From a virus, in IMG/VR virus record IMGVR_UViG_3300043449_002450, positions 62,001 through 126,000 of that record: DNA of 64,000 nt; one strand, given 5' to 3'. The notes under the pieces are model-generated. The model had not been told where the DNA came from, did no database searches, and was given only the letters and a program-made list of their open reading frames with translations. Position numbers and translations under genes: made by a program. Shown in pieces: positions 4,201-58,949 of this stretch (the stretch's first letter is position 1; each line of letters starts with the position of its first letter).

Positions 4201-4844
4201 ATCTTAGGCTTGAAAAATCAACAAGAGAGACCATTTCACCACAATTTACGCTTATCACAAACAGAGTTGAGCCTGATGGGTCTACAACAAGAGTTGATTA
4301 TTATTTCCCACACGACACATTGACAGGATCTAGCACACAAGCATTTAATAGCGCGATTACACAAATAACAGATGATCAAGATAACACGACAAGAATCACT
4401 AATTTTAATGATTCAAACATTAAAATTAGTAACTACAACTACACAAGTGAGAAATTTGAAGAATTTGCAGCAAGCGCAGGGTTTTTAGGAAATGCAAAAG
4501 CCGCCGCTCAAAATCAACTAATTCAATCATCTTTAGAAAGCTATGTTGAGGATCTATATGGACTTTATCCAAGGTATGCTTTTTTTAAGACAATCGGGTC
4601 CAGAGAGATAGTAGAAATTCCATACGCAAATGAAATAGTTGATTCTTATCCGGTCGACGAGCAAGAAGCACAACTCATAAGATCGCGCTTAAGAGCTGCA
4701 ATATTAATGCACAAGAATTTTTGCACTACAACCATGTTGAATGATCTTGAATCTTCGCCCCTCTTTGATAGGATTGTTTATTCTCTAGTAGAGACAGAGA
4801 CTGTTGGTAATTTGTCAACTCTAAGTTGCAAGGTGACAATATAA
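1299..4844 (+). CDS. Large putative virion structural protein with Gly-Lys tract
   Basis: An 1181-residue protein I cannot assign to a family. The N-terminal 90 residues are polar and helix-prone, followed at about residues 99-117 by a Gly-Lys alternating tract encoded by near-pure purine DNA. The remaining 1060 residues mix helical and beta stretches without recognisable motifs, signal peptide or transmembrane segment. The ATG follows the preceding stop immediately, with GGAG about 9 nt upstream, and the stop overlaps the next start as TAATG, so the three genes are probably co-translated. Size and position among tail and adhesin-like genes suggest a baseplate-periphery or fibre-associated protein. 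The tract may be a flexible, positively charged linker. Confidence 0.8.
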   Translation: MPIQKSSTRLIAQNEGSGKASAIAKSEIGSSQSKLTREDLTTNLSTAGVAANIDANKLAGNDVVKLKKINDSLSKSLAILQEEDEKKKSKTRVSDDQLSGKGKGKGKGKGKGEKGKDGKTGNYIPPEVKSTAITLSPTDYDVYLTGSGVNSIQPVIIADVPFNNYFNSESPAYDIVTLQQGLKDDTVLIADQLVKNYFRSNSARFAALKQISDKNISFYNTAVNSVADIAVASRNLIQGIESSKITGNSYTLVKSFRAVGFDNVTNIFPSSTAVFKIDDRVYGGPATSFNDDDVVKTDRNDIFWNYDNKNAYKSTKIGQDLRDAFIATICGYESRQNLNDPNIIKNEETGDQKFREVLIRAAVAWQRGGTINTSTLYEYATPNADEGTLSVSDGDNLRDVNDFYSIGNVLWAYDTASSDDPYDIIEKKRFSDFDRAVRNPGLKGVIPNFKNVATKVNSTFSTYRLVPIVASLIAEQVGGTIASNANLPRIFINAADNNVNTQIEFTIDDLLPLVAQVNDTLLSLFDATVNLEGLNARSPSGLIYATSFDPDKLETLRLAYNTSKVNIQNILIKNSGLFSNQIAVFILKVMFDEFLSFFENSVLVTGSSKYSLLRAIMLFHASQQQEKAADLWVMLNNKSKLRGARAADDGYLEDEIQSSLNLYFDPVRGSEETTSAPFTFEAFADTVRSAADIDEAEDEVEASTTFLSKLFDSDSSFGMFDRIADKVKSAYSLENSTIAEGALRLTSYMIFLDILRLVKAKYRYDIVRDGYGDYNGVYAYIKFSKRDTTAITDCLRSAVEYSVLTDYRTYTSIRSGPPIESTKASIISHFWNPIRSIVRNVLQIYENLDTKFAYIYSQVLNAMNALDPAKQAYSSLKRAYSFLDGLSDQDASAKASALVSKYATLESIIELKHRSRRYQTLIKNTDITSFAARSPYFRSIVEAVHRDVLTERQARIYVVGIPYGMLENLRLEKSTRETISPQFTLITNRVEPDGSTTRVDYYFPHDTLTGSSTQAFNSAITQITDDQDNTTRITNFNDSNIKISNYNYTSEKFEEFAASAGFLGNAKAAAQNQLIQSSLESYVEDLYGLYPRYAFFKTIGSREIVEIPYANEIVDSYPVDEQEAQLIRSRLRAAILMHKNFCTTTMLNDLESSPLFDRIVYSLVETETVGNLSTLSCKVTI
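1595..1648 (+). repeat. GGAAAA polypurine repeat coding for the Gly-Lys tract
   Basis: Reiterated GGAAAA hexamers give a 54-base purine run interrupted only by C at 1628. In frame they encode alternating Gly and Lys inside the 1181-residue protein. Such a run is prone to polymerase slippage in 6-base steps that keep the frame, so tract length may vary between related phages. Confidence 0.8.
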
Positions 4845-11701: not shown

Positions 11702-12673
11702 GTGATCGTGCAACCTACATTTACAGAGAAAGTCGTCTTCGTCGAGAAGTGGTTCGGAAAGGGCCAGATCTCTAGAACAGGCGCAGACATTGCCATCTGC
11801 TGCCCTTACTGTGGTGAGACAAAGAAGAAGAAGATGTCGATCTCACTTGTCAGCTGGCAGTTTCACTGTTGGGTGTGTGCTGCCAAGGGCAAGACGCTTA
11901 TTCCTGCGCTTAGGAAGTTCAAAAGTCGTGAAGCAGCACAGGAGTTTAGGCAGAGATTCTTGGGAGAAGTCCCAGAATTTGAGACAGCGCAACAGGCACA
12001 AGAGCTTAAATTTGAATACCCAGAAGGTTATGTCCCACTTGGCCTTCTGCTTGACACAAAGAATCCAAACACGCGTGCCTGCATCAGGTATCTCCAGAAG
12101 CGTGGCTGGACTGAGAATGACATTTTTAAGTTTAGAGCTGGTGTTACACCAGGCGGCAAGGATCCTAGGCGGATATATTTCATCTCTCTTGATGACGAAG
12201 GAGAAGAAAATTACTTCGTGTCAAGGACAATCGATGATTCATCAACATATCGATACATAAATTCTCAGCTTGATAAGACACAGATAATTTTTAACGAGTG
12301 TGATGTTGACTGGGACCTGCCTGTTTATCTAGTAGAGGGTGTATTTGACCTTGTAAGCTTGAAAAAGAACACCATCTGCATGCTTGGTTCGTCTTTGCCA
12401 GAGTCTAGCCTGCTGTTCAAAAAGCTGGTTGCAAATGAGTGTGACGTTGTTCTTGCACTGGACAGTGACGTGCAATCAAAGGCTGCAAGGATCGCCGATA
12501 AACTTGTTAGCTACGGCTGCTCTGTCAAGATGTTTCCTCTTTGTGGTGCTAAGGATGTTGGATCGATGACAAGAGAGCAGATCGATGAAGCTGATACTCG
12601 TCTAATTACGTGGAATTTAACAAATTCTCTAATCTCTAAGATTGGAAATATTAGAAGTGGCTCATTGTTCTGA
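11702..12673 (+). CDS. DNA primase (zinc finger plus Toprim)
   Basis: 323 residues. The N-terminus has a four-Cys zinc finger (CPYC near residues 34-37, CWVC near 56-59), as in CHC2-type primases. The central part leads to a Toprim domain with the EG motif (VYLVEGVFDL, near residue 213) and DSD (VVLALDSDV, near residue 253). It would lay RNA primers for lagging-strand synthesis, working with the gp41-like helicase encoded at 54.1 kb, as T4 gp61 does with gp41. The start is a GTG, either 11702 or the in-frame GTG 6 nt later; neither has a good ribosome site. The final 20 residues are not conserved-looking. Confidence 0.85.
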   Translation: MIVQPTFTEKVVFVEKWFGKGQISRTGADIAICCPYCGETKKKKMSISLVSWQFHCWVCAAKGKTLIPALRKFKSREAAQEFRQRFLGEVPEFETAQQAQELKFEYPEGYVPLGLLLDTKNPNTRACIRYLQKRGWTENDIFKFRAGVTPGGKDPRRIYFISLDDEGEENYFVSRTIDDSSTYRYINSQLDKTQIIFNECDVDWDLPVYLVEGVFDLVSLKKNTICMLGSSLPESSLLFKKLVANECDVVLALDSDVQSKAARIADKLVSYGCSVKMFPLCGAKDVGSMTREQIDEADTRLITWNLTNSLISKIGNIRSGSLF

Positions 12674-12687
12674 TAATTACTATTATC

Positions 12688-13020
12688 ATGAAACTCATCC
12701 GAGAGCTTATTAGGTCTATTCTTAGCGATGACGCGCTCTATCGCAGGCGAGATTTGCCGGGCGATCTAGGCGATCCGCCAGAAATTTATGACACACCCCA
12801 CGATGATGAAGACGAATCTGATTGTGGTTGTGGGTGTGGTAATTGCGATGACACGCACGACGACGAGGATGATTATGTCACCCCCAAGTATGCGCTTTAT
12901 TCGGCGATTGGAGATGCGATAAGCGTCTATGATGACATGGAAGATGAGTCGTTTGGTGATGATGAAGCTGACGCCGCCATTATGCGTGTCGCAGAAGAGA
13001 TTAAAAGAATAAAGCGCTAA
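12688..13020 (+). CDS. Small acidic protein with Cys-Gly cluster
   Basis: 110 residues, unknown function. It starts with a short amphipathic helix (MKLIRELIRSILSD) resembling the N-termini of some head-region proteins. An Asp/Glu-rich stretch around residues 38-65 follows, with a compact CGCGCGNC cluster flanked by His-Asp pairs (DTPHDDEDE and DTHDDEDD). The cluster could bind metal, but spacing fits no family I know. The C-terminal 40 residues are predicted helical. There is no ribosome site, only AT-rich sequence, before the ATG. It lies between primase and SbcCD, so a replication accessory or internal virion protein are both possible. Confidence 0.65.
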   Translation: MKLIRELIRSILSDDALYRRRDLPGDLGDPPEIYDTPHDDEDESDCGCGCGNCDDTHDDEDDYVTPKYALYSAIGDAISVYDDMEDESFGDDEADAAIMRVAEEIKRIKR

Positions 13021-18334: not shown

Positions 18335-20389
18335 ATGGCAAAGAATGAAAACATCTTCAATCGGCTAACATCGCTTTTTAGAAGCGGTCCAGTCGTTAAG
18401 AGAAGAGTAAAAGAATACAAGCCGAGTGAGCAAAATACCTCGGCTTATGAACTCTTTAGGAAGACACAGTCGAACGTCTATAGCACAGCAATGAGTGCCT
18501 ATGGCACGTATGACCGAATGGCAAGATATTCTGACTTTCAAGAGATGGAATACACACCAGAAATAGCGTCCGCGCTAGACATCTACGCTGAAGAGTCTGT
18601 TTCACCCGATGAGAAGGGCAATATTGTTCATATTTACTCAGAAAATGCTCAGATTCAGAAGCTGCTAAATGAGCTCTTTTATGATACGCTCAACGTCAAC
18701 TTTAATATGACGTCCTGGGCGCGCAACATGTGCAAATATGGCGACTTCTTCCTCTTTAACGACGTCTCACCTGAGCATGGCGTTATAAATGTCTTTCCAA
18801 TTGCTGTCAATGAGATCGAACGTGAGGAAGGATTTGATAAGAACGATCCTCTGGCTGTCCGGTATCGCTGGGTAACACAGGGTAATCAGGTCCTGCAGAA
18901 CTGGCAGGTAAGCCATTTTAGAATCTTGGGAAATGATGCATTTCTTCCATATGGAACATCAGTCCTAGAAGCAGCAAGACGTATCTGGCGTCAATTGATC
19001 CTCGTTGAAGACGCGATGCTAGTCTATCGAATTGTTCGTGCACCAGATCGTCGAGTTTTCTACATTGACGTTGGTAACGTTCCGCCTGAAGAAATTCCTA
19101 ATTACATGGAGCAAGTCCAATCAACGCTTAAGAAGAACCAGGTTATTGACAGGAATACAGGGCGCGTTGACTTGAGATATAACCCAATGTCTGTCGATGA
19201 GGACTACTTCTTGCCCGTTAGAGGTGGCCAGACAGGCACTAAGATTGATCCTCTTGCAGGTGGCCAGAACGCTGCGGCGATCGAAGATGTGCAGTATATC
19301 CAGAAGAAGCTTTTCTCTGCACTTAAGATACCCAAAGCATACCTTGGCTATGATGAGGGATTGGGCGCAAAGGCAACACTTTCGCAGGAAGACATACGAT
19401 TCTCCAGGTCTATCAATAGAATCCAGCGGACAATTGTGTCTGAGCTTAATAAGCTTGCAATTGTTCACCTCTACTGCAATGGCTTTGAGGGACATGATTT
19501 GTTAGATTTTGAATTAAAGCTAACAAATCCTTCAACGATTGCTCAACAACAAAAGCTTGAACTTTATACAACAAAGTTCACAATTGCGCAGACTGCAACA
19601 GGAATAGACGGTCTTGTTGATAAGCGCTGGATTAAGAAGAACATCTTCATGATGCCTGACGAAGAGATCGAGTCAATCGAGAGAGGTCTTTACAAGGACA
19701 AGGAGATGTCGCTGAAGCTTGAGGCTGTCAAACTACCCGAGCCCGAAGCACCCGCGGGCGGTCCGCCCGGAGAAAGTGGGACTCCTGCAGAACCAGCGCC
19801 AGGCGGAGGACCTCCTGGAGGTGGTGAGAGCCCGCTAGGTAATCTTGACCTTGGCGGCGGTGCTTCTGGTGAACCAATAACTTCTGGTGACACAAGAAAT
19901 CCATTTAAGCTTCCAACGCTTGATGAAGATGAGTTTGAGACACCCATTAATTTGGACCAGATCGCGTCGATCAAGGGATTACCATTGCGCGCCTTTGCAG
20001 GTCTTTCTAGAGCACCAGGCGTTGCGTCCAGAAGCTTGCTAGATGAGACTAAGGCGGGACCTGATTATGCAGCTAGAGAGCGTCACAACGCTCGTCGTCG
20101 AAAAGGAACTAGAGCAAATACTTCTACAGATCACGCAGCGCTCGTTGGCGTTGATAAAAGCGACCCTAGAGATTCAATTGCGCACCCATACGGTGAAAAG
20201 AAGGACCTTGTTAACCCCTTAAAGAACGCACACAAGGTAAAGATTGATGAGTCTGGAAATGATGACTTCTTTGACACATACTTAGATAGCAAGCTTGATA
20301 TCACAGAAATGAACCAGCACAACATTAACAGAATAATTAAGAATTTGAGATCTAACAACTCTGAGTCAAATACTCCAGAGGAGGAATAA
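18335..20389 (+). CDS. Portal protein (T4 gp20-like)
   Basis: 684 residues. The N-terminal two thirds carry the features of gp20-like portals: RMARYSDFQEMEYTPEIASALD, SWARNMCKYGDFFLF, and a stem region with KATLSQEDIRFSRSINRIQ. Twelve copies would form the head vertex ring through which the terminase pumps DNA. Unusual for the family, residues about 470-515 form a Pro/Gly-rich linker, and a long polar C-terminal extension follows, with a basic patch ARERHNARRRKGTR. This tail may reach into the head or contact DNA. The stop overlaps the next ATG by one base. AAGGG precedes the start. Confidence 0.92.
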   Translation: MAKNENIFNRLTSLFRSGPVVKRRVKEYKPSEQNTSAYELFRKTQSNVYSTAMSAYGTYDRMARYSDFQEMEYTPEIASALDIYAEESVSPDEKGNIVHIYSENAQIQKLLNELFYDTLNVNFNMTSWARNMCKYGDFFLFNDVSPEHGVINVFPIAVNEIEREEGFDKNDPLAVRYRWVTQGNQVLQNWQVSHFRILGNDAFLPYGTSVLEAARRIWRQLILVEDAMLVYRIVRAPDRRVFYIDVGNVPPEEIPNYMEQVQSTLKKNQVIDRNTGRVDLRYNPMSVDEDYFLPVRGGQTGTKIDPLAGGQNAAAIEDVQYIQKKLFSALKIPKAYLGYDEGLGAKATLSQEDIRFSRSINRIQRTIVSELNKLAIVHLYCNGFEGHDLLDFELKLTNPSTIAQQQKLELYTTKFTIAQTATGIDGLVDKRWIKKNIFMMPDEEIESIERGLYKDKEMSLKLEAVKLPEPEAPAGGPPGESGTPAEPAPGGGPPGGGESPLGNLDLGGGASGEPITSGDTRNPFKLPTLDEDEFETPINLDQIASIKGLPLRAFAGLSRAPGVASRSLLDETKAGPDYAARERHNARRRKGTRANTSTDHAALVGVDKSDPRDSIAHPYGEKKDLVNPLKNAHKVKIDESGNDDFFDTYLDSKLDITEMNQHNINRIIKNLRSNNSESNTPEEE

Positions 20390-21255
20390 TGAGTAGCCCG
20401 ATAAGCATTAATCACAATAAGAAGAGAAACGTGGGAGTGGTCTACGAACTGCTCCTCCGTGCTGTGTCATCTTACATTGTTGAGGGGAAGAAAGATAAAG
20501 CGCAGTTAGCACTTGACATTATCTCTAAGAGATTTTCACAAGACACAGAGTTGTTTAAAGAGTTTAGACTCTTCAATGCTCTTGCCAAAACACAGATCAC
20601 AGATCCTACTGTCGCAGCCGTTATTTTGACAGAAACAAAAGCAGCAGCTAGACGTCTCGATCTAGCAAAGCTTGATAGAGAAAAATCGCTATTGATCAGA
20701 GATATCAATCATAGTCTTGATGATTCGAGCTTCTATCACAGGCGTTTGAATAACTACCGCGATTTGGCTACGATACAAGTAGCAATTAACGAGTGGGTGC
20801 TTTGTGACAGGTCAGACTTCTCACAAACTTTGATGGTAGAGTCAAAACTAATTGAGCAACTCAAGAACAATAAGGCAAATCCCGAACCTCTTGAGAACCA
20901 AAAGAGTGATGCTGTTGACAATCTTGTTGTTAAGATTCTAAATGAAAAGTTTAATAAGAAATATGAGGGAAAGCTTACAGATGACCAGCGATCTTTAATT
21001 CAAGATTATGTTATTACTAGAACAAACGGCATAGTCTCAAAAGATATGGTTGATAGAGCCAAAAGAATTAAAAATGAGGCACTTGTTTGTCTAGAGACAA
21101 TTCAGAAAACAGAGAGCAATACCGTTATACAGGAAAACATAAAGAGTGTTAGAAACAAGGTGTCTGAACTTGATGTTGATGATCTAAATGATGACACATT
21201 AAGCAAACTCATGACACTATCACAGCTTGCCAAAGAAACACAGGAGACGAAATGA
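20389..21255 (+). CDS. Head-region protein between portal and protease, unknown
   Basis: 288 residues, almost entirely helical, beginning SSPISINHNKKRNVGVVYELLLRA. There are no catalytic motifs, signal peptide or membrane segment. The gene overlaps the portal stop by one base and the protease start by four (ATGA), so translation of portal, this protein and protease is probably coupled. Similar proteins occur at this place in large marine T4-like phages, with no known function. A prohead-core or vertex-assembly role is the reasonable guess from position and helicity, as with T4 gp67/gp68, but there is no sequence match that I can recognise. Confidence 0.75.
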   Translation: MSSPISINHNKKRNVGVVYELLLRAVSSYIVEGKKDKAQLALDIISKRFSQDTELFKEFRLFNALAKTQITDPTVAAVILTETKAAARRLDLAKLDREKSLLIRDINHSLDDSSFYHRRLNNYRDLATIQVAINEWVLCDRSDFSQTLMVESKLIEQLKNNKANPEPLENQKSDAVDNLVVKILNEKFNKKYEGKLTDDQRSLIQDYVITRTNGIVSKDMVDRAKRIKNEALVCLETIQKTESNTVIQENIKSVRNKVSELDVDDLNDDTLSKLMTLSQLAKETQETK

Positions 21256-21860
21256 ATAACGCTCTCACACTTCTAACTGAGTGGCTACCTCTATCTTTGA
21301 CACCAAATGTTGTCAAAGAGTCCAAGCAGATCAATGGTGGCAAAATAATGCTGCGTGGCGTCATACAGCGTGCAGATACTCTCAACCAAAATGGAAGAAT
21401 ATACCCACGCGCCATTCTTGAGAGAGAGATCATAAACTATCAAAAGTTTATTCGAGAGAATAGAGCACTCGGTGAGTGTGACCATCCCGATACTTCCGTT
21501 GTAGAGCTAAAGAATGTCTCACACATAGTCAGAGAGGCTCACATGGACGGCGATACTGTGTTTGGCACAGTTGAACTGCTCGACACGCCAAGCGGCAAGA
21601 TACTTCAGTCTCTAATCGAAAGTGGTGTGACACTTGGCATTTCATCACGCGGCGTAGGATCTACGCGTCAGCAGTCAGGCAGTCTTGTTGTTCAAGAAGA
21701 CTTCCAGTTAATTTGCTTTGACATAGTTTCCGAGCCAAGCACACCAGGTGCCTTCATGATGAACGAATCAAAGGTTGTTAGACCATCTGATTTGCGTGCG
21801 ACGTTTAATAAGTCTGACAGAATTAATAGAATCTTCAATGACATAAAAACATGGAAGTGA
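21252..21860 (+). CDS. Prohead maturation protease (T4 gp21-like)
   Basis: 202 residues, serine protease of the gp21/herpesvirus assemblin-like fold. Candidate catalytic residues are H78 in GECDHP, the serine in GISSRGVGS (S131 or S132), and the acidic motif FDIVSEPSTPGAFM. It would cleave scaffold and capsid precursors after assembly of the prohead, with a preference for Glu preceded by a hydrophobic residue two positions earlier. Matching LxE sites occur in the capsid precursor (QLLRE at residue 61) and many in the scaffold. Length is close to T4 gp21. The gene lies directly upstream of the head-core cluster. Confidence 0.92.
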   Translation: MNNALTLLTEWLPLSLTPNVVKESKQINGGKIMLRGVIQRADTLNQNGRIYPRAILEREIINYQKFIRENRALGECDHPDTSVVELKNVSHIVREAHMDGDTVFGTVELLDTPSGKILQSLIESGVTLGISSRGVGSTRQQSGSLVVQEDFQLICFDIVSEPSTPGAFMMNESKVVRPSDLRATFNKSDRINRIFNDIKTWK

Positions 21861-22717: not shown

Positions 22718-23251
22718 ATGTCAACATTAAGAACAGCTACAGTCATCCCGCAAGGTCCTCCTGGTGAAGGTGGATTTGGGCACAGGAGCGATGTAAACAT
22801 TAGAGCAATGTTTAGAACTCCTGTTGGCACAACTTACAGCGAAGAAGCTGTCAGAAATGCTGCTGTTGCCGCTTTTAATGGCGCAGGTGGCCCAGGCGAC
22901 AGCATTCCTAACATAGGCGTTTCTAATGGCGTCATCAATGATGGCGGCCACGCATTCGGATCTTTTGATTTGAATTACACAAACGCACCAGATTTTAGCA
23001 CTGTCCTCGTCGGCGGCGAAGGTTTGCCTGCGTCGCCTTATGTTCCTAACCTAGCATCTCCAGGGCCGGGCAGCACTTCTCCAAGTGACCAGCCCGAGTA
23101 TCTTGGGAACATACCTGAGGCTCGAGCACAATATGGTTCTGGAATGGGTAGTGCTGTTGCACCTAGCACAACAGCACCTGGCATTTCTTCTCAAAAGATT
23201 GGTGCATATATCTCTGGAAGATCTTACAGAGGATCTGACGGTATCTACTAA
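22718..23251 (+). CDS. Gly/Pro/Ser-rich protein in head cluster, unknown
   Basis: 177 residues, rich in Gly, Pro, Ser and Ala with few charged helices, so probably largely extended or disordered. No motif recognised. AGGA precedes the ATG at good spacing. The stop and the next ATG overlap (TAATG). Position between head-core genes and scaffold suggests a virion head component, but this is inferred only from neighbours. Confidence 0.6.
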   Translation: MSTLRTATVIPQGPPGEGGFGHRSDVNIRAMFRTPVGTTYSEEAVRNAAVAAFNGAGGPGDSIPNIGVSNGVINDGGHAFGSFDLNYTNAPDFSTVLVGGEGLPASPYVPNLASPGPGSTSPSDQPEYLGNIPEARAQYGSGMGSAVAPSTTAPGISSQKIGAYISGRSYRGSDGIY

Positions 23252-23784
23252 TGCCTAAATACGTCCATGACCAACGCGTAGGTGCTGGTTACGGAGCTGT
23301 AGGCGGTCGCGGGCTCCGGCACAACTCAACAGTTGCCGGAGCCCGCTTTCCATACAATGGCGATGACTCTGAACCCATAGACATGGATGACGAGGATCAG
23401 GAGACACGTGACATTATTGGGCGTCGTTTAAGCCACTCTAATATTGCACGTGAGCCTAGCCAGAGCATGAGGCGCGACTACTTCACAATGTCTAAGAACC
23501 GCCTTAATCTTGCTGAAACTGATTCACAAGCAAGAACTCTGTTAGGCATGGTGCCGTTCCCAATGCAAAGAATAGATGGACCTGCAATAGGTGGGCACTC
23601 TTCAAATCGTGCCTACAGGGTCGCACCGGGCAGAATTGATGGATCACCGTATGGTTGGACAAAGGGTGCAATGAATAAGAAATGGGGTGACGAGAATGAA
23701 GCACCACCCAGATTCATGGACGCTATAGATCCCGAAGTTAGAGAAAAAGTTAGCTTAAAGTTGAAAATACCACGTCTAAGATAA
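23251..23784 (+). CDS. Unknown protein in head cluster, contains a terminator-like hairpin in its gene
   Basis: 177 residues, polar, Arg- and Gly-rich, with no recognised motif. The start overlaps the preceding stop (TAATG). Near the 5' end, codons for GRGLRHNSTVAGAR lie on a perfect 12-bp GC-rich inverted repeat (23309-23346) that is much stronger than expected in coding sequence. The protein ends with a basic KLKIPRLR. Location before the scaffold gene suggests a head or head-core role. The gene is followed by a 56-base spacer before the scaffold start. Confidence 0.6.
   Translation: MPKYVHDQRVGAGYGAVGGRGLRHNSTVAGARFPYNGDDSEPIDMDDEDQETRDIIGRRLSHSNIAREPSQSMRRDYFTMSKNRLNLAETDSQARTLLGMVPFPMQRIDGPAIGGHSSNRAYRVAPGRIDGSPYGWTKGAMNKKWGDENEAPPRFMDAIDPEVREKVSLKLKIPRLR
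23309..23346 (+). other. Strong GC-rich hairpin inside a coding region
   Basis: Left arm GCGGGCTCCGGC (23309-23320) and right arm GCCGGAGCCCGC (23335-23346) are perfectly complementary over 12 bp. The 14-base loop can add a 4-bp AACT/AGTT inner stem. Right after it comes CTTTCC, only a short T run. It could attenuate transcription, pause ribosomes or protect an mRNA end between the head-core genes and the scaffold and capsid genes. Confidence 0.6.
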
Positions 23785-23840
23785 TATCAAGAATAAACTA
23801 CGTGTGAGTGATACGTATTCTCAGTAAGAGGTAGTAACCT

Positions 23841-25241
23841 ATGTCGAAGTCTCTGTTCGAAGAGGCAATAGCAGATGCAAAGCAGCTACGTGAAGCAGCT
23901 GAAGCTAATGCCAAGAATGCCATCATAGAAGCCGTAACACCACGCATCAGAGAGTTTATTGAAGCTCAGCTGGTGGGCGGAAAGGTCGTAAATGAGAGTA
24001 ACTTTCTAGCTGATGCTCTGCTTAGCGAAGAGAATGAGGGCATCGAAGATGAGACCGATGAGAATGTTGAGCTTGATGAGACAGCATTACGTTCTCTCGC
24101 AAATCTAGTCAATGGGACTAGGACTAATGAGTCTGATGCACTGCGTGAGGCCTTCGAGACTCTGACTGAAGAAGAGCAAGAAAAGCTTTTTAGCATGCTT
24201 CGTGAAGAAGAGTCTAATAAAGTGCCAGCCACTGCCAAAAAAACAGCAAGTGGTGGCCTAGATAATGAAGGAGAGGCATCTGAAAATCTATACGAGGTCG
24301 ATCTCGAAGATCTTAAAGAGACTCTAATGAAAGAATTTAAAAATAAGAAAACATCAGGAGCTTCAAAGATGTCAAGAAAGACCCTAAGAGAAAGTTATCA
24401 CATGGACGAGGACCTCTATGAGCTCGACGAGATGATGGATGATGCCGATCTCGAAGAGGCCATTCTAAAGATCGTTGGAAACTCTGAGGAGCGTGACAGC
24501 TTCGACAAGCTCGGCCTATCTGGCATTGAGTTCGAGGAAGAGGCTGGAGAGGACGAGGAAGAGGAAGTCGCGATGGGCGACGAGGAAGGCGAAGGCGAAG
24601 AGGCCGGAGAGGCCCCTCCCGAAGGTGAAGGCGCTCCAGAAGCTCCTCTCGCCGAGATGGGTGTCTACGAGATCGATGAGAATATGCTCCGTCGAGAGCT
24701 TTCTCGTCTCCGTGAGGCCCGCAAGCGCGGCCGCGGTCGCAAGGCTAAGAACTCGTCGCACAAGGCAGCTGCCGCCGCTTTCGGTGGCGGAATGCTCGAG
24801 GGAGATCCCCTCGATGTGAAGACGCTCCAGGGCGTCAACCAACTCAAGAAGAAAGCTTTAAAAGAGGCGCACGAAAATCGTGCCCTAAAGACCCAGCTCA
24901 ATGAATACAGGAGTGCCGTGCAGACTCTCCGTGAGCAACTCAGTGACCTTAACTTGTTCAACGCAAAGCTTCTTTACGTCAACAAGATCCTCCAGAACAA
25001 AGACGTGTCTCCAGCACAGAGGAGATCGGCCATAGAGGCTCTTGACGGCGCATCCAATCTTCGCGAAGCCAAGTTGCTCTACCAGGGCTTGACAGCCTCG
25101 ATACAGTCGAACAACGCTTCGATCAACGAGTCTGTAAGGCACACAGCCGGCATGGCTTCACGTCCTGTCGCCTCCGCATCCGCTCGAATTGGCGCAGCGG
25201 GCGAGGTCGATCGTTGGGCAATCCTTGCAGGCATCAAGTAA
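23841..25241 (+). CDS. Prohead core scaffold protein (T4 gp22-like)
   Basis: 466 residues, strongly acidic and helical, beginning SKSLFEEAIADAKQLREAAE. Glu/Asp-rich blocks occupy residues about 60-160 and 230-275. One basic Arg/Lys/Gly patch (ARKRGRGRKAKNSS, near 295) interrupts them, followed by a long coiled coil to about 440. Composition and its place directly before the capsid gene fit the main core protein around which the prohead assembles and which the protease later degrades; many LxE and IxE sites are present. The basic patch may contact DNA or the shell. AGAGG lies upstream of the ATG. Confidence 0.8.
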   Translation: MSKSLFEEAIADAKQLREAAEANAKNAIIEAVTPRIREFIEAQLVGGKVVNESNFLADALLSEENEGIEDETDENVELDETALRSLANLVNGTRTNESDALREAFETLTEEEQEKLFSMLREEESNKVPATAKKTASGGLDNEGEASENLYEVDLEDLKETLMKEFKNKKTSGASKMSRKTLRESYHMDEDLYELDEMMDDADLEEAILKIVGNSEERDSFDKLGLSGIEFEEEAGEDEEEEVAMGDEEGEGEEAGEAPPEGEGAPEAPLAEMGVYEIDENMLRRELSRLREARKRGRGRKAKNSSHKAAAAAFGGGMLEGDPLDVKTLQGVNQLKKKALKEAHENRALKTQLNEYRSAVQTLREQLSDLNLFNAKLLYVNKILQNKDVSPAQRRSAIEALDGASNLREAKLLYQGLTASIQSNNASINESVRHTAGMASRPVASASARIGAAGEVDRWAILAGIK

Positions 25242-25267: not shown

Positions 25268-27196
25268 ATGTCTAAGACATTCTCACTCAACCAGCTCACA
25301 GAGGGCATCAGCGATCGGAATGTGACCGATGAGGGCCGCAGGCTCCTCGAGAAGTGGAACCGCACTGGCCTTCTCCGCGGACTTGATGGCGTCAAGCGTG
25401 ACACCATGGCTCGCCTCCTCGAGAACCAGGCTTCGCAGCTTCTTCGGGAGTTCAACAGCCTCGGCTCAGGTGGTGGTAGCCAGGCTGCCGGTGGCGACAT
25501 CCGCGGCTTCACCAACATCGCCTTCCCCATCGTCCGCCGCGTCTTCGGTGGCCTCGTGGCCAACGAGCTCGTCTCGATCCAGCCCATGTCACTTCCAAGC
25601 GGACTCCTCTTCTACTTGGACTACACATACGGCTCTGACGTCGGTGGCGACGCCAACCTCGTGACCGGTAACTCCACCAGCGGCGCAACCTACAAGGCCG
25701 GCCAGTCGATCTACAACAACCCCACAGGCAAGGGCGTCCGCAGCGGATCTCTCGCCACGGGTGGTCAGTATGACCTCATCGGCACTGGCTTCACCAAGGT
25801 TCACACATCCTCACTCGTTGTGGGTGTCGCAGCCAAGGGCGCTTTCCACACAGCAGGCGGCGCAGCTTCTTCTGTTCTCGTTAGCAGCCAGCTGTGCTTT
25901 GCAACTGGCACAGACGGTCGCCTCCTCCAGTTCGACCCACAGGTCACAACTGCAATCGAGGACGATGCTGCCGATGGCGCCATCAACGGTTTCGGCCAGT
26001 TCCAGTTCCTCCTTCTCCCTGCATCCTCGTTCCCCCCGAACGTTGACTTCCAGCAGGTCAAGGAGATCGCTCTCCACTCAGCACAGGTTAGCTCGACTGC
26101 ACTCGGCCTCGCAGTTCCTGGTGAGTCGTTCCAGGGTGGAAGTGGAATCCTCAACATCCGTCGTCTCAACCAGTTCGGAACCTACGCGGGTGGCGTGTTC
26201 ACACCAAACCCACTTCTTCCATCCGGTTCATCTAACGCACACGTTCTGGTCGTTGTCTCTGGTTCATACCAGCCTAGCGCAGCTACCCCAGGACCTTACC
26301 TCACTGCATCGTATGCACTCACAGATGCACTCACAGTTGACAGCTCTGATGCCACGACTCTCACGATCCCCTCGTTCGAGTCTGACTTCAGCACGACACC
26401 CTCGGTTGTCATCCCTGAGATCGACATCAAGATCGAGAGCATCCCAGTCACTGCCACGACCCGCAAGCTCCGCGCTCGTTGGTCGCCAGAGTTGGCCCAG
26501 GACCTCAACGCCTATCACTCGATGGACGCTGAGGTGGAGCTCACCCAGATCCTCTCCGAGCAGATCGCTCTAGAGATCGACCGTGAGATCCTCAACGACC
26601 TCCTCACCGAGGCTCGAGGCGCCAACTACTACTGGTCCCGTGCACCTGGTCGATTCCTCAACAAGACGAACGGCGCCGAGATCGCTCGCTCCGACACCAC
26701 ATTCCCCGGTCCCCAGTTCACTGGCACCGTCCGTGAGTGGTACGAGACTCTCATCGAGACCGTCATTGACGTCGCCAACGAGATCCACCGCAAGACTCTC
26801 CGTGGTTCGGCCAACTTCATTGTGGTCAGCCCCGACGTCGCCACGGTCCTCGAGGCTTCGGTCATGTACAAGCCCAACTACAGCATCGACGGCCAGGGCC
26901 AGGTCGGTGGCTCCATGTCGATCGGTGCTTCACCCATCGGCACTCTGAGCAACCGCTTCACCGTCTACAAGGACCCCTACTTCCCCCGTAACAAGATCCT
27001 CGTCGGTTACAAGGGCGGCAGCTACCTCGAGACAGGCTATGTCTACGCTCCCTACGTTCCGCTCATCGTCACCCCGACGATCTTCGCTCCTGAGGACTTC
27101 ACCCCCAGGAAGGGCGTGATGACCCGTTACGGCAAGAAGATGGTTCGCGCCGACTTCTACGGAACGGTCACCTGCCTCGACATGAACATCATCTGA
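25268..27196 (+). CDS. Major capsid protein precursor (T4 gp23-like)
   Basis: 642 residues, larger than T4 gp23 (521). The N-terminus contains LLENQASQLLRE (residues 51-61); cleavage after E61 would match the gp21 rule and the E65 cut in T4 gp23. The HK97-like shell domain follows with IVRRVFGGLVANELVSIQPMSLPSGLLFYLDYTYG. A long Gly/Thr/Ser-rich insertion around residues 170-390 may form a surface loop. Later segments (AYHSMDAEVELTQILSEQIALEIDREIL) are typical of the family. Codon use shifts sharply to C-ending codons compared with neighbours, as expected for the most abundant protein. AGGAG precedes the ATG; a UUCG terminator follows. Confidence 0.95.
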   Translation: MSKTFSLNQLTEGISDRNVTDEGRRLLEKWNRTGLLRGLDGVKRDTMARLLENQASQLLREFNSLGSGGGSQAAGGDIRGFTNIAFPIVRRVFGGLVANELVSIQPMSLPSGLLFYLDYTYGSDVGGDANLVTGNSTSGATYKAGQSIYNNPTGKGVRSGSLATGGQYDLIGTGFTKVHTSSLVVGVAAKGAFHTAGGAASSVLVSSQLCFATGTDGRLLQFDPQVTTAIEDDAADGAINGFGQFQFLLLPASSFPPNVDFQQVKEIALHSAQVSSTALGLAVPGESFQGGSGILNIRRLNQFGTYAGGVFTPNPLLPSGSSNAHVLVVVSGSYQPSAATPGPYLTASYALTDALTVDSSDATTLTIPSFESDFSTTPSVVIPEIDIKIESIPVTATTRKLRARWSPELAQDLNAYHSMDAEVELTQILSEQIALEIDREILNDLLTEARGANYYWSRAPGRFLNKTNGAEIARSDTTFPGPQFTGTVREWYETLIETVIDVANEIHRKTLRGSANFIVVSPDVATVLEASVMYKPNYSIDGQGQVGGSMSIGASPIGTLSNRFTVYKDPYFPRNKILVGYKGGSYLETGYVYAPYVPLIVTPTIFAPEDFTPRKGVMTRYGKKMVRADFYGTVTCLDMNII

Positions 27197-27219
27197 TGTT
27201 CTAGCCGACAAGGCACATG

Positions 27220-27249
27220 GCGGCCACCCTTCGGGGTGGCCGCTCTTGT
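27220..27249 (+). terminator. Intrinsic terminator after the capsid gene
   Basis: A perfect 10-bp stem GCGGCCACCC/GGGTGGCCGC is closed by a TTCG tetraloop (UUCG in RNA, exceptionally stable) and followed by TCTTGT. It lies 23 bases after the capsid stop codon and should end the head operon or trim its mRNA. Confidence 0.9.
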
Positions 27250-28078: not shown

Positions 28079-28112
28079 TCAAGCGTCCTCAAAAGGGGCG
28101 CTTGATCTGTAT
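28079..28112 (+). terminator. Intrinsic terminator after the 49-residue gene
   Basis: TCAAGCGTCC (28079-28088) pairs with GGGCGCTTGA (28096-28105), a 10-bp stem with one G-T wobble and a loop of 7 bases, followed by TCTGTATTT. It separates the decoration-protein genes from the neck genes. Confidence 0.75.
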
Positions 28113-51991: not shown

Positions 51992-52031
51992 CGGGCGCAG
52001 GATGTAAATGCAGATCCTGCGCCCGTATTGT
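51992..52031 (+). terminator. Intrinsic terminator after the ssDNA-binding gene
   Basis: CGGGCGCAGGAT (51992-52003) pairs perfectly with ATCCTGCGCCCG (52014-52025), a 12-bp stem with a 10-base loop, followed by TATTGTTT. It would allow the abundant ssDNA-binding protein to be made from its own transcript separately from UvsX. Confidence 0.92.
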
Positions 52032-58085: not shown

Positions 58086-58663
58086 CCCTCATTAAGGAAT
58101 GCGAACTTCGCGCTCCGCCTATCATCATCCGCGTCAATAAGTTCGATGAGGACTCAGCAAAGGAGTTTGTCCAGCACATGTCGATTGCCCAGTCTTCTGG
58201 GCAAAATGTGATTCCTGTCGTCATCGACAGCTATGGCGGTCAGGTCTACTCTCTTATGACCATGATCGATGCAATCAAGGGGTCACGAGTTCCTGTCGCG
58301 ACCATCGTCGAGGGTAAGGCGATGTCCTGCGGCGCTGTCCTGTTGACTTGTGGCGCGCCTGGCATGCGCTATGCATCTCCTCACTCCACCATCATGATCC
58401 ACGAGGTAGCGTCTGGTGGTGCTGGCAAGGTCGAGGAGATCAAGGCAGATGCCAAGGAGACAGATCGACTCAATGAGAAGATCTTCAAGCTTATGGCAGA
58501 CAACATTGGTAAGGATGAATCATTCTTCCTCGATGAGATCCATCACAAGAAGCATGCAGACTGGTATCTTGAGCCAGAAGAAGCAAAAGAGATTGGCCTT
58601 ATTAACCATGTTAAGATTCCAGAGATGATGTTAACTGTTGACGTCAAATATAAGTTTGAATAG
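58061..58663 (+). CDS. clpP: ClpP-like serine protease
   Basis: 200 residues, usual ClpP length. The oxyanion-hole Gly-Gly is in VVIDSYGGQVYS, the catalytic Ser is S89 in KAMSCGAVLL and His is H114 in TIMIHEVASGG; the Asp is probably in the helix after KADAKETDRLNEK. Phage ClpP-like proteins may act as prohead or regulatory proteases or recruit host ClpX-type unfoldases. Because a gp21-like prohead protease is present at 21.3 kb, a regulatory or host-directed role is more likely here. The gene lacks a ribosome site and starts inside an inverted repeat. It overlaps the following membrane-protein gene. Confidence 0.9.
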   Translation: MNIITRVSPLIKECELRAPPIIIRVNKFDEDSAKEFVQHMSIAQSSGQNVIPVVIDSYGGQVYSLMTMIDAIKGSRVPVATIVEGKAMSCGAVLLTCGAPGMRYASPHSTIMIHEVASGGAGKVEEIKADAKETDRLNEKIFKLMADNIGKDESFFLDEIHHKKHADWYLEPEEAKEIGLINHVKIPEMMLTVDVKYKFE

Positions 58664-58949
58664 AAGAGCAGAACTACTATTAAAAGTTGTCACATGGAGA
58701 CTCTTCTCCATGTGTTACGGCTTTTCGATCGCATACTTTTTCACAAATAACGCCATGGAATCTCTAGGAATTGTGGCTCTAACAGGATCCACTTTGACAC
58801 TTTTGCAGTGGCTTTTTGAGATTTTGTGGGATAACCACATCAGGGAGCGCTTAAGATATGCCCTTTCAAGAGAACAAGGTAGAGCTAGTTGGCTATTATG
58901 GTGGCGACGAGGCACACGCGCTGTCAGCGTGGACGAGCACAAGCCGTGA
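58638..58949 (+). CDS. DUF2061-like small membrane protein
   Basis: About 103 residues or slightly fewer. Two hydrophobic segments (LFSMCYGFSIAYFF near 22-35; LGIVALTGSTLTLLQWLFEILW near 43-64) follow a basic start RRAELLLKVVTWR. This is the pattern of the DUF2061 family of small two-span membrane proteins, whose function is unknown. The start is uncertain: TTG 58638 or TTG 58656, both inside the end of clpP, so translation is likely coupled. The C-terminal 30 residues overlap the thyX gene and may be poorly conserved. It probably sits in the host inner membrane. Confidence 0.6.
   Translation: MTSNISLNRRAELLLKVVTWRLFSMCYGFSIAYFFTNNAMESLGIVALTGSTLTLLQWLFEILWDNHIRERLRYALSREQGRASWLLWWRRGTRAVSVDEHKP

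Follow-up and report, generated by a model that had tools for sequence, protein, structure and literature searches.

The hairpin at positions 23309-23346 raises the question of whether a terminator-like structure inside a phage gene is a by-product of the encoded protein or an RNA element with a role of its own. The stretch of DNA analysed here, referred to as the window, is 64,000 nucleotides long (positions 62001-126000 of the 176,181-base virus record IMGVR_UViG_3300043449_002450), and the phage that carries it is T4-like. The left arm, GCGGGCTCCGGCA (23309-23321), and the right arm, TGCCGGAGCCCGC (23334-23346), both 13 nt long and on the + strand, were delimited by an inverted-repeat search and by folding. 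They are 100% complementary over 13 nt across a spacer of 12 nt, and the apical part between them (23322-23333) consists of a 2-nt bulge, a 3-bp helix and a CAAC loop. The hairpin structure is genuine: its RNA minimum free energy is -29.8 kcal/mol, and none of 200 dinucleotide shuffles equals it (z -7.2). The sequence-only reading had described a perfect 12-bp stem, 58 bases into a coding sequence and as strong as the real terminators of the window. The perfect stem and the location were borne out, the stem beginning at nucleotide 59 of the ORF, and the length has to be corrected to 13 bp. The C that was read as the start of the tail is the last base of the stem, the sequence right after it being TTTCCATACA, and the comparison with terminators was an understatement, since every other 46-nt fold on the + strand of the whole window is less stable. 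Perfect 13-bp stems with a loop of 3-14 nt occur at 2 positions in the real window and at none in 200 first-order Markov copies of it. By inspection of its arms, the second position is an AT-rich palindrome at 4398-4430, with 16-nt arms that are 94% complementary and 1 nt apart. Rfam models do not match the hairpin; a chance hit below threshold lies elsewhere, at 23401-23456.

The stem spans nucleotides 59-96 of the host ORF (23251-23784, + strand, 177 aa), near the start of the gene. As seen from its neighbours, this ORF belongs to a head cluster. Upstream lie the portal gene (18335-20389) and the head maturation protease gene (21252-21860), both with PHROG matches, and downstream follow a scaffold-like gene (23841-25241, + strand), named from its position only, and the gene of the major head (capsid) protein (25268-27196, + strand; phrog_138, E 1.2e-74). 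The host ORF is one of four ORFs that, together with the scaffold-like gene, lie between the protease gene and the capsid gene, and none of these five has a PHROG family. Pfam gave no match for the host ORF, which belongs to no known family. Among annotated phages, neither the hairpin region nor the host ORF has a DNA or protein match, and the best capsid matches there are distant, including T4-like cyanophages.

Homologues of the host ORF were found in 8 distinct close relatives (L003, L005, L006, L007, L008, L009, L010 and L022) by viral-contig scans. L004 and L021 were left out as near-duplicates of L005 and L022 with the same match values, and L001 and L009 are one contig. The hairpin comparison covered these eight relatives, and nine of the more weakly matching loci (about 24-38% identity) entered an alignment only. 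A further viral-contig scan for close relatives returned only the L003 contig. Prophage or host copies were sought in 36 genome-contig stretches with the DQRxGAGYG pattern, and neither these nor the viral contigs L112 and L114 gave a tblastn match to the protein of the host ORF. The nearest relative found is L003 (IMGVR_UViG_3300044641_008848; also L106), with 70% amino acid identity. In all nine genomes, including this one, the host ORF starts within the stop codon of the ORF before it (22718-23251, + strand, in this phage); the overlap reads TGATG in two of them and otherwise, as here, TAATG.

Can the encoded protein alone account for the hairpin? The host ORF was recoded synonymously at random 1000 times, with the codon usage of this window applied to every relative. 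None of the 1000 recodings reached the local energy of the hairpin (z -6.8), and perfect stems in the recoded ORFs reached at most 9 bp. A second test with each genome's own codon usage agreed with the first for the hairpin. Therefore, the protein alone is not the explanation; codon choice is. The corresponding hairpin of L003 (-24.5 kcal/mol) was likewise matched by 0 of 1000 recodings (z -5.2). Across the genes from portal to scaffold, 1069 homologous coding windows of 39 nt were ranked by summed z, and the hairpin came first (-11.75, the next being -9.09); in four further windows z falls below -3 in both phages as well. Strong folds can be observed elsewhere in these clusters as well. Two adjacent strong hairpins (24769-24814, together -27.1 kcal/mol) lie in the scaffold-like gene, part of them with a counterpart in L106 at 12668-12706, and the strongest 46-nt fold of that contig (L106:7661-7706, -32.5) lies in a Pro/Ala/Gly-rich part of the relative's portal gene.

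At the same codons L003 reads GCGGGCTTCGG-CATGGTGATTTCATGT-CTGGAGCCCGT. It retains 11 of the 13 pairs, three of them as G-U through C/T differences; the two innermost pairs are gone, and a 5-bp apical helix is formed on a different sequence instead. The sense strand folds at -24.5 kcal/mol versus -14.3 for the antisense strand, which points to RNA of the coding strand, not DNA, as the level at which the structure exists. This bears directly on the idea that the palindrome, perfect in the window, acts in DNA as a protein-binding site, a cruciform or a mobile palindromic repeat. That idea is disfavoured and most improbable, as the three G-U among the 11 kept pairs break the DNA palindrome in L003 and leave the sense RNA able to fold. 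Moreover, the host ORF has the same length as in the hairpin-less relatives, to within one codon, so nothing was inserted; the 10-nt arm core has no second exact copy in the 176-kb record; and of 11 viral-contig stretches that match the hairpin pattern, only the L003 contig has the same gene. A mobile or repeated palindrome was rejected on these grounds. Additionally, the apical loop resembles the -CAAC- loop that PMC3014915 describes from SELEX for the T4 DNA polymerase operator; the loop of L003 differs, and this candidate was rejected too.

The seven other relatives lack the hairpin, their z ranging from -0.62 to 1.85 at the homologous 38 nt, with 4 to 8 of the 13 positions pairable. Six of them share 48-54% amino acid identity with this phage, and for L022 the only identity value, 62%, refers to the protein of L009. 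Two same-place folds were not counted as retention. The one in L009 (-21.7 over 75 nt) is matched by recodings (z -0.73, 108/500), and the one in L010 (-20.7; z -1.98, 17/500) uses different pairs. In L007, L008 and L022 it is the upstream gene, homologous to ORF 22718, that has a structured start, its first ~100 nt giving a z of about -4.2 to -4.9. These starts, of weaker energies, could be a moved counterpart of the hairpin or an effect of Gly/Pro codons. The sequence-only reading held that a selected structure would have to be kept together with the coded residues. Such joint conservation was found in L003 (11/13 pairs, three G-U) and not in the seven more distant relatives. Presence in L003 and absence from seven further relatives indicate a recent origin of the hairpin, and a selected RNA structure is supported, as far as two sequences go, only within this small lineage.

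The strength of selection was gauged from the codons. Among residues identical in this phage and L003, the same codon is used in 59 of 118 in the host ORF, and codon identity in the arms (5/8) is not significantly higher than elsewhere (54/110). Pairing is kept in one of the eight distinct relatives, by three one-sided changes to G-U, with zero two-sided compensation in the outer 11 pairs. In a neutral model, the window sequence was evolved to the residues of L003 at an assumed codon identity in 4000 runs; 1.45% of the runs folded as well as L003 at the measured codon identity of 50%, and this share varied with the assumption, from 0.7% at 40% to 13.6% at 90%. These values enter into both sides of the simplest rival explanation, in which a chance palindrome arose in a tolerant protein stretch and survived without a role in two related phages. 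Its absence from 7 relatives, the arm codons that are not significantly more conserved, a single retained comparison whose neutral probability depends on the assumed codon identity, and the presence of other strong coding hairpins in the window would all suit such a by-product. It is distinctly unlikely in view of the 1.45% neutral retention at measured codon identity, the complete failure of recodings to reproduce the hairpin, its first rank among the 1069 windows, and the fact that all three base changes within the 11 kept pairs still pair, in the sense strand only. The two sequences therefore offer modest evidence that the hairpin has been kept as sense RNA by selection, and it was probably retained for a function, such as stopping part of the transcription or shielding an mRNA end, and not by accident.

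The protein also changed where the arms lie. GRKGFQ, present in all seven hairpin-less relatives, has become GGRGLRH (or the like) in the two hairpin phages, in which the right arm codes for GAR; the flanking GAGYG and FPY motifs are unchanged. Among the 70 columns invariant in the seven relatives, the two hairpin phages share a new residue in 8; the arms contain 5 of the 70 columns and 3 of the 8 (hypergeometric P 0.009, for a region chosen post hoc). It is possible, if somewhat doubtful, that the RNA structure reshaped the protein, a regulatory hairpin having overridden conservation in a head-cluster gene. If true, this would be a case of an RNA signal displacing conserved residues.

What such an RNA would do depends partly on what follows the stem. 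Intrinsic terminators are expected to combine a stable GC-rich stem-loop with at least 5 T in the 8 bases after the stem. The former is present (13 bp, -29.8 kcal/mol), and the short U-tail TTTCCATA (23347-23354, + strand) has 4 T in 8, so the hairpin is called terminator-like and not a canonical intrinsic terminator. A simple terminator scan of the window (loop 3-8, 5 T in 8) did not list it, its tail having 4 T in the first 8 bases. The TTT in the tail is the family's usual Phe codon. By a weighted tail score, the hairpin (2.6) and L003 (2.69) exceed the background 95% quantile of 1.97, and the phage's other terminator-like hairpins score between 1.51 and 2.83, a span that includes 2.6. A combined stem-and-tail terminator score gave 6.0 for the hairpin and -5.7 for L003. 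The former exceeds all four stretches scored at hairpins outside named genes (-1.5, -19.5, 0.2 and -7.3, the last two being one hairpin delimited twice).

The phage's own hairpins at 27219-27244, 28079-28105 and 51992-52025 likewise combine GC-containing stems with imperfect U-tails, and their scores are comparable or lower. They lie outside named genes, whereas the longer stem at 23309-23346 is part of a conserved ORF. The one at 27219-27244 has a C(UUCG)G loop and a T-poor tail, begins 22 bases after the capsid stop, and is likely the terminator of the capsid gene. At 58682-58725, a 19-bp hairpin with AAAAG/CTTTT ends lies within a small ORF (58638-58949); perhaps it is a real bidirectional terminator and the ORF is spurious.

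The tail likewise bears on the reading in which polymerase does not stop here at all, and processed or Rho-terminated portal/protease transcripts are trimmed back by 3' exonucleases to the stem and stabilised by it. The stem is very stable, it has been kept as sense RNA with G-U pairs allowed, and a barrier of this kind would need no U-tail, the actual one being short; in E. coli, ORF-internal 3' ends are often ascribed to RNase processing in the account of PMC7815308. A tail score above the background 95% quantile speaks against this reading, no nearby processing site is known, and trimming would leave an RNA that breaks off 58 nt into a gene. An exonuclease barrier of this kind is regarded as rather unlikely.

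A role in translation was considered as well. By slowing ribosomes early in the ORF, the hairpin would set re-initiation at the overlap or aid folding of the nascent protein, which would suit its place 59-96 nt past the start codon, right after the overlapping stop and start. However, it lies too far past the start site to mask it, no slippery sequence is seen ahead of it by eye, and the overlap exists in all 9 genomes with the hairpin in 2. Such an element is improbable. Of the three functions put forward in the sequence-only reading (attenuation, protection of a 3' end, ribosome pausing), sequence features favour attenuation or 3'-end formation over pausing.

The best explanation, held tentatively and at somewhat less than an even chance, is that the hairpin is a coding-strand mRNA element which originated in the common lineage of this phage and L003, was kept there, and acts as a leaky, terminator-like intragenic attenuator. 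RNA polymerase coming from the portal and protease genes would transcribe the stem and the short U-tail at nt 59-104 of the ORF. With a ribosome close behind across the TAATG overlap, the hairpin would be held open and transcription would continue; with the ribosome lost or late at this junction, it would fold and a share of the polymerases would stop. The stop/start overlap just upstream would be a natural spot for such a lag, and gating by ribosome position is suggested by this overlap alone. In this way the portal/protease unit would be set off in part from the scaffold/capsid unit, for which a separate late promoter at ~23810 is probable. In the gap between host ORF and scaffold-like gene (23785-23840), a GATAnnTATTTTCAG-like block is present in all nine genomes, reading GATACGTATTCTCAG in this phage (23810-23824, + strand) and GATATAAATA in L007. 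It is likened to TATAAATA, the core of the T4 late promoter. The conserved block is a plausible candidate late promoter; the motif is not enriched elsewhere in the window. What the sequences establish is the fold, its improbability given the protein, its retention as sense RNA in one relative, the overlap and the conserved block downstream; termination, its gating by translation and the promoter activity are inferred. Against an attenuator stand the short U-tail with its ordinary Phe codon, the combined score of -5.7 in L003, the unremarkable codon identity of the arms, the 13.6% neutral retention at 90% codon identity and the four other windows of low z in both phages, and a stop at the hairpin would truncate the conserved host ORF as well. 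The seven relatives without it indicate that the family does not need the hairpin. The facts would fit a leaky terminator, or a trimmed 3' end, placed ahead of a scaffold/capsid unit with a promoter of its own.

Terminators and 3' ends inside ORFs are already known, and the phage hairpin would be a further example. In E. coli, ORF-internal 3' ends and premature terminators have been documented (Adams et al. 2021, PMC7815308). These likewise place a terminator-like hairpin in coding sequence, where it could end transcripts early. Compared to the ispU example described there (6-bp stem, eight U), the present case belongs to a phage head cluster, has a 13-bp stem and a short U-tail, and is known from sequence alone. 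In the pyrL leader attenuator of pyrBI, the trailing ribosome holds the terminator hairpin open (PMC5021804). There, too, the hairpin lies in a translated stretch and is blocked by a close ribosome. The phage hairpin also lies in a translated, conserved ORF (nt 59-96), and as regards gating the likeness is presumptive. pyrL encodes a leader peptide and precedes biosynthetic genes, whereas the phage hairpin lies in a conserved 177-codon gene within an operon. In the literature searched, no report of a conserved intragenic terminator-like hairpin in a T4-like head cluster was recognised, which is weak evidence of absence.

As a chance structure, the hairpin would be ordinary. Recoding tests and a single close relative made it possible to distinguish a terminator-like hairpin in a phage gene from coding chance. 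If it works as proposed, the hairpin would give this phage a compact means, needing no noncoding space, of separating the head parts of low abundance (portal, protease) from those of high abundance (scaffold, capsid).
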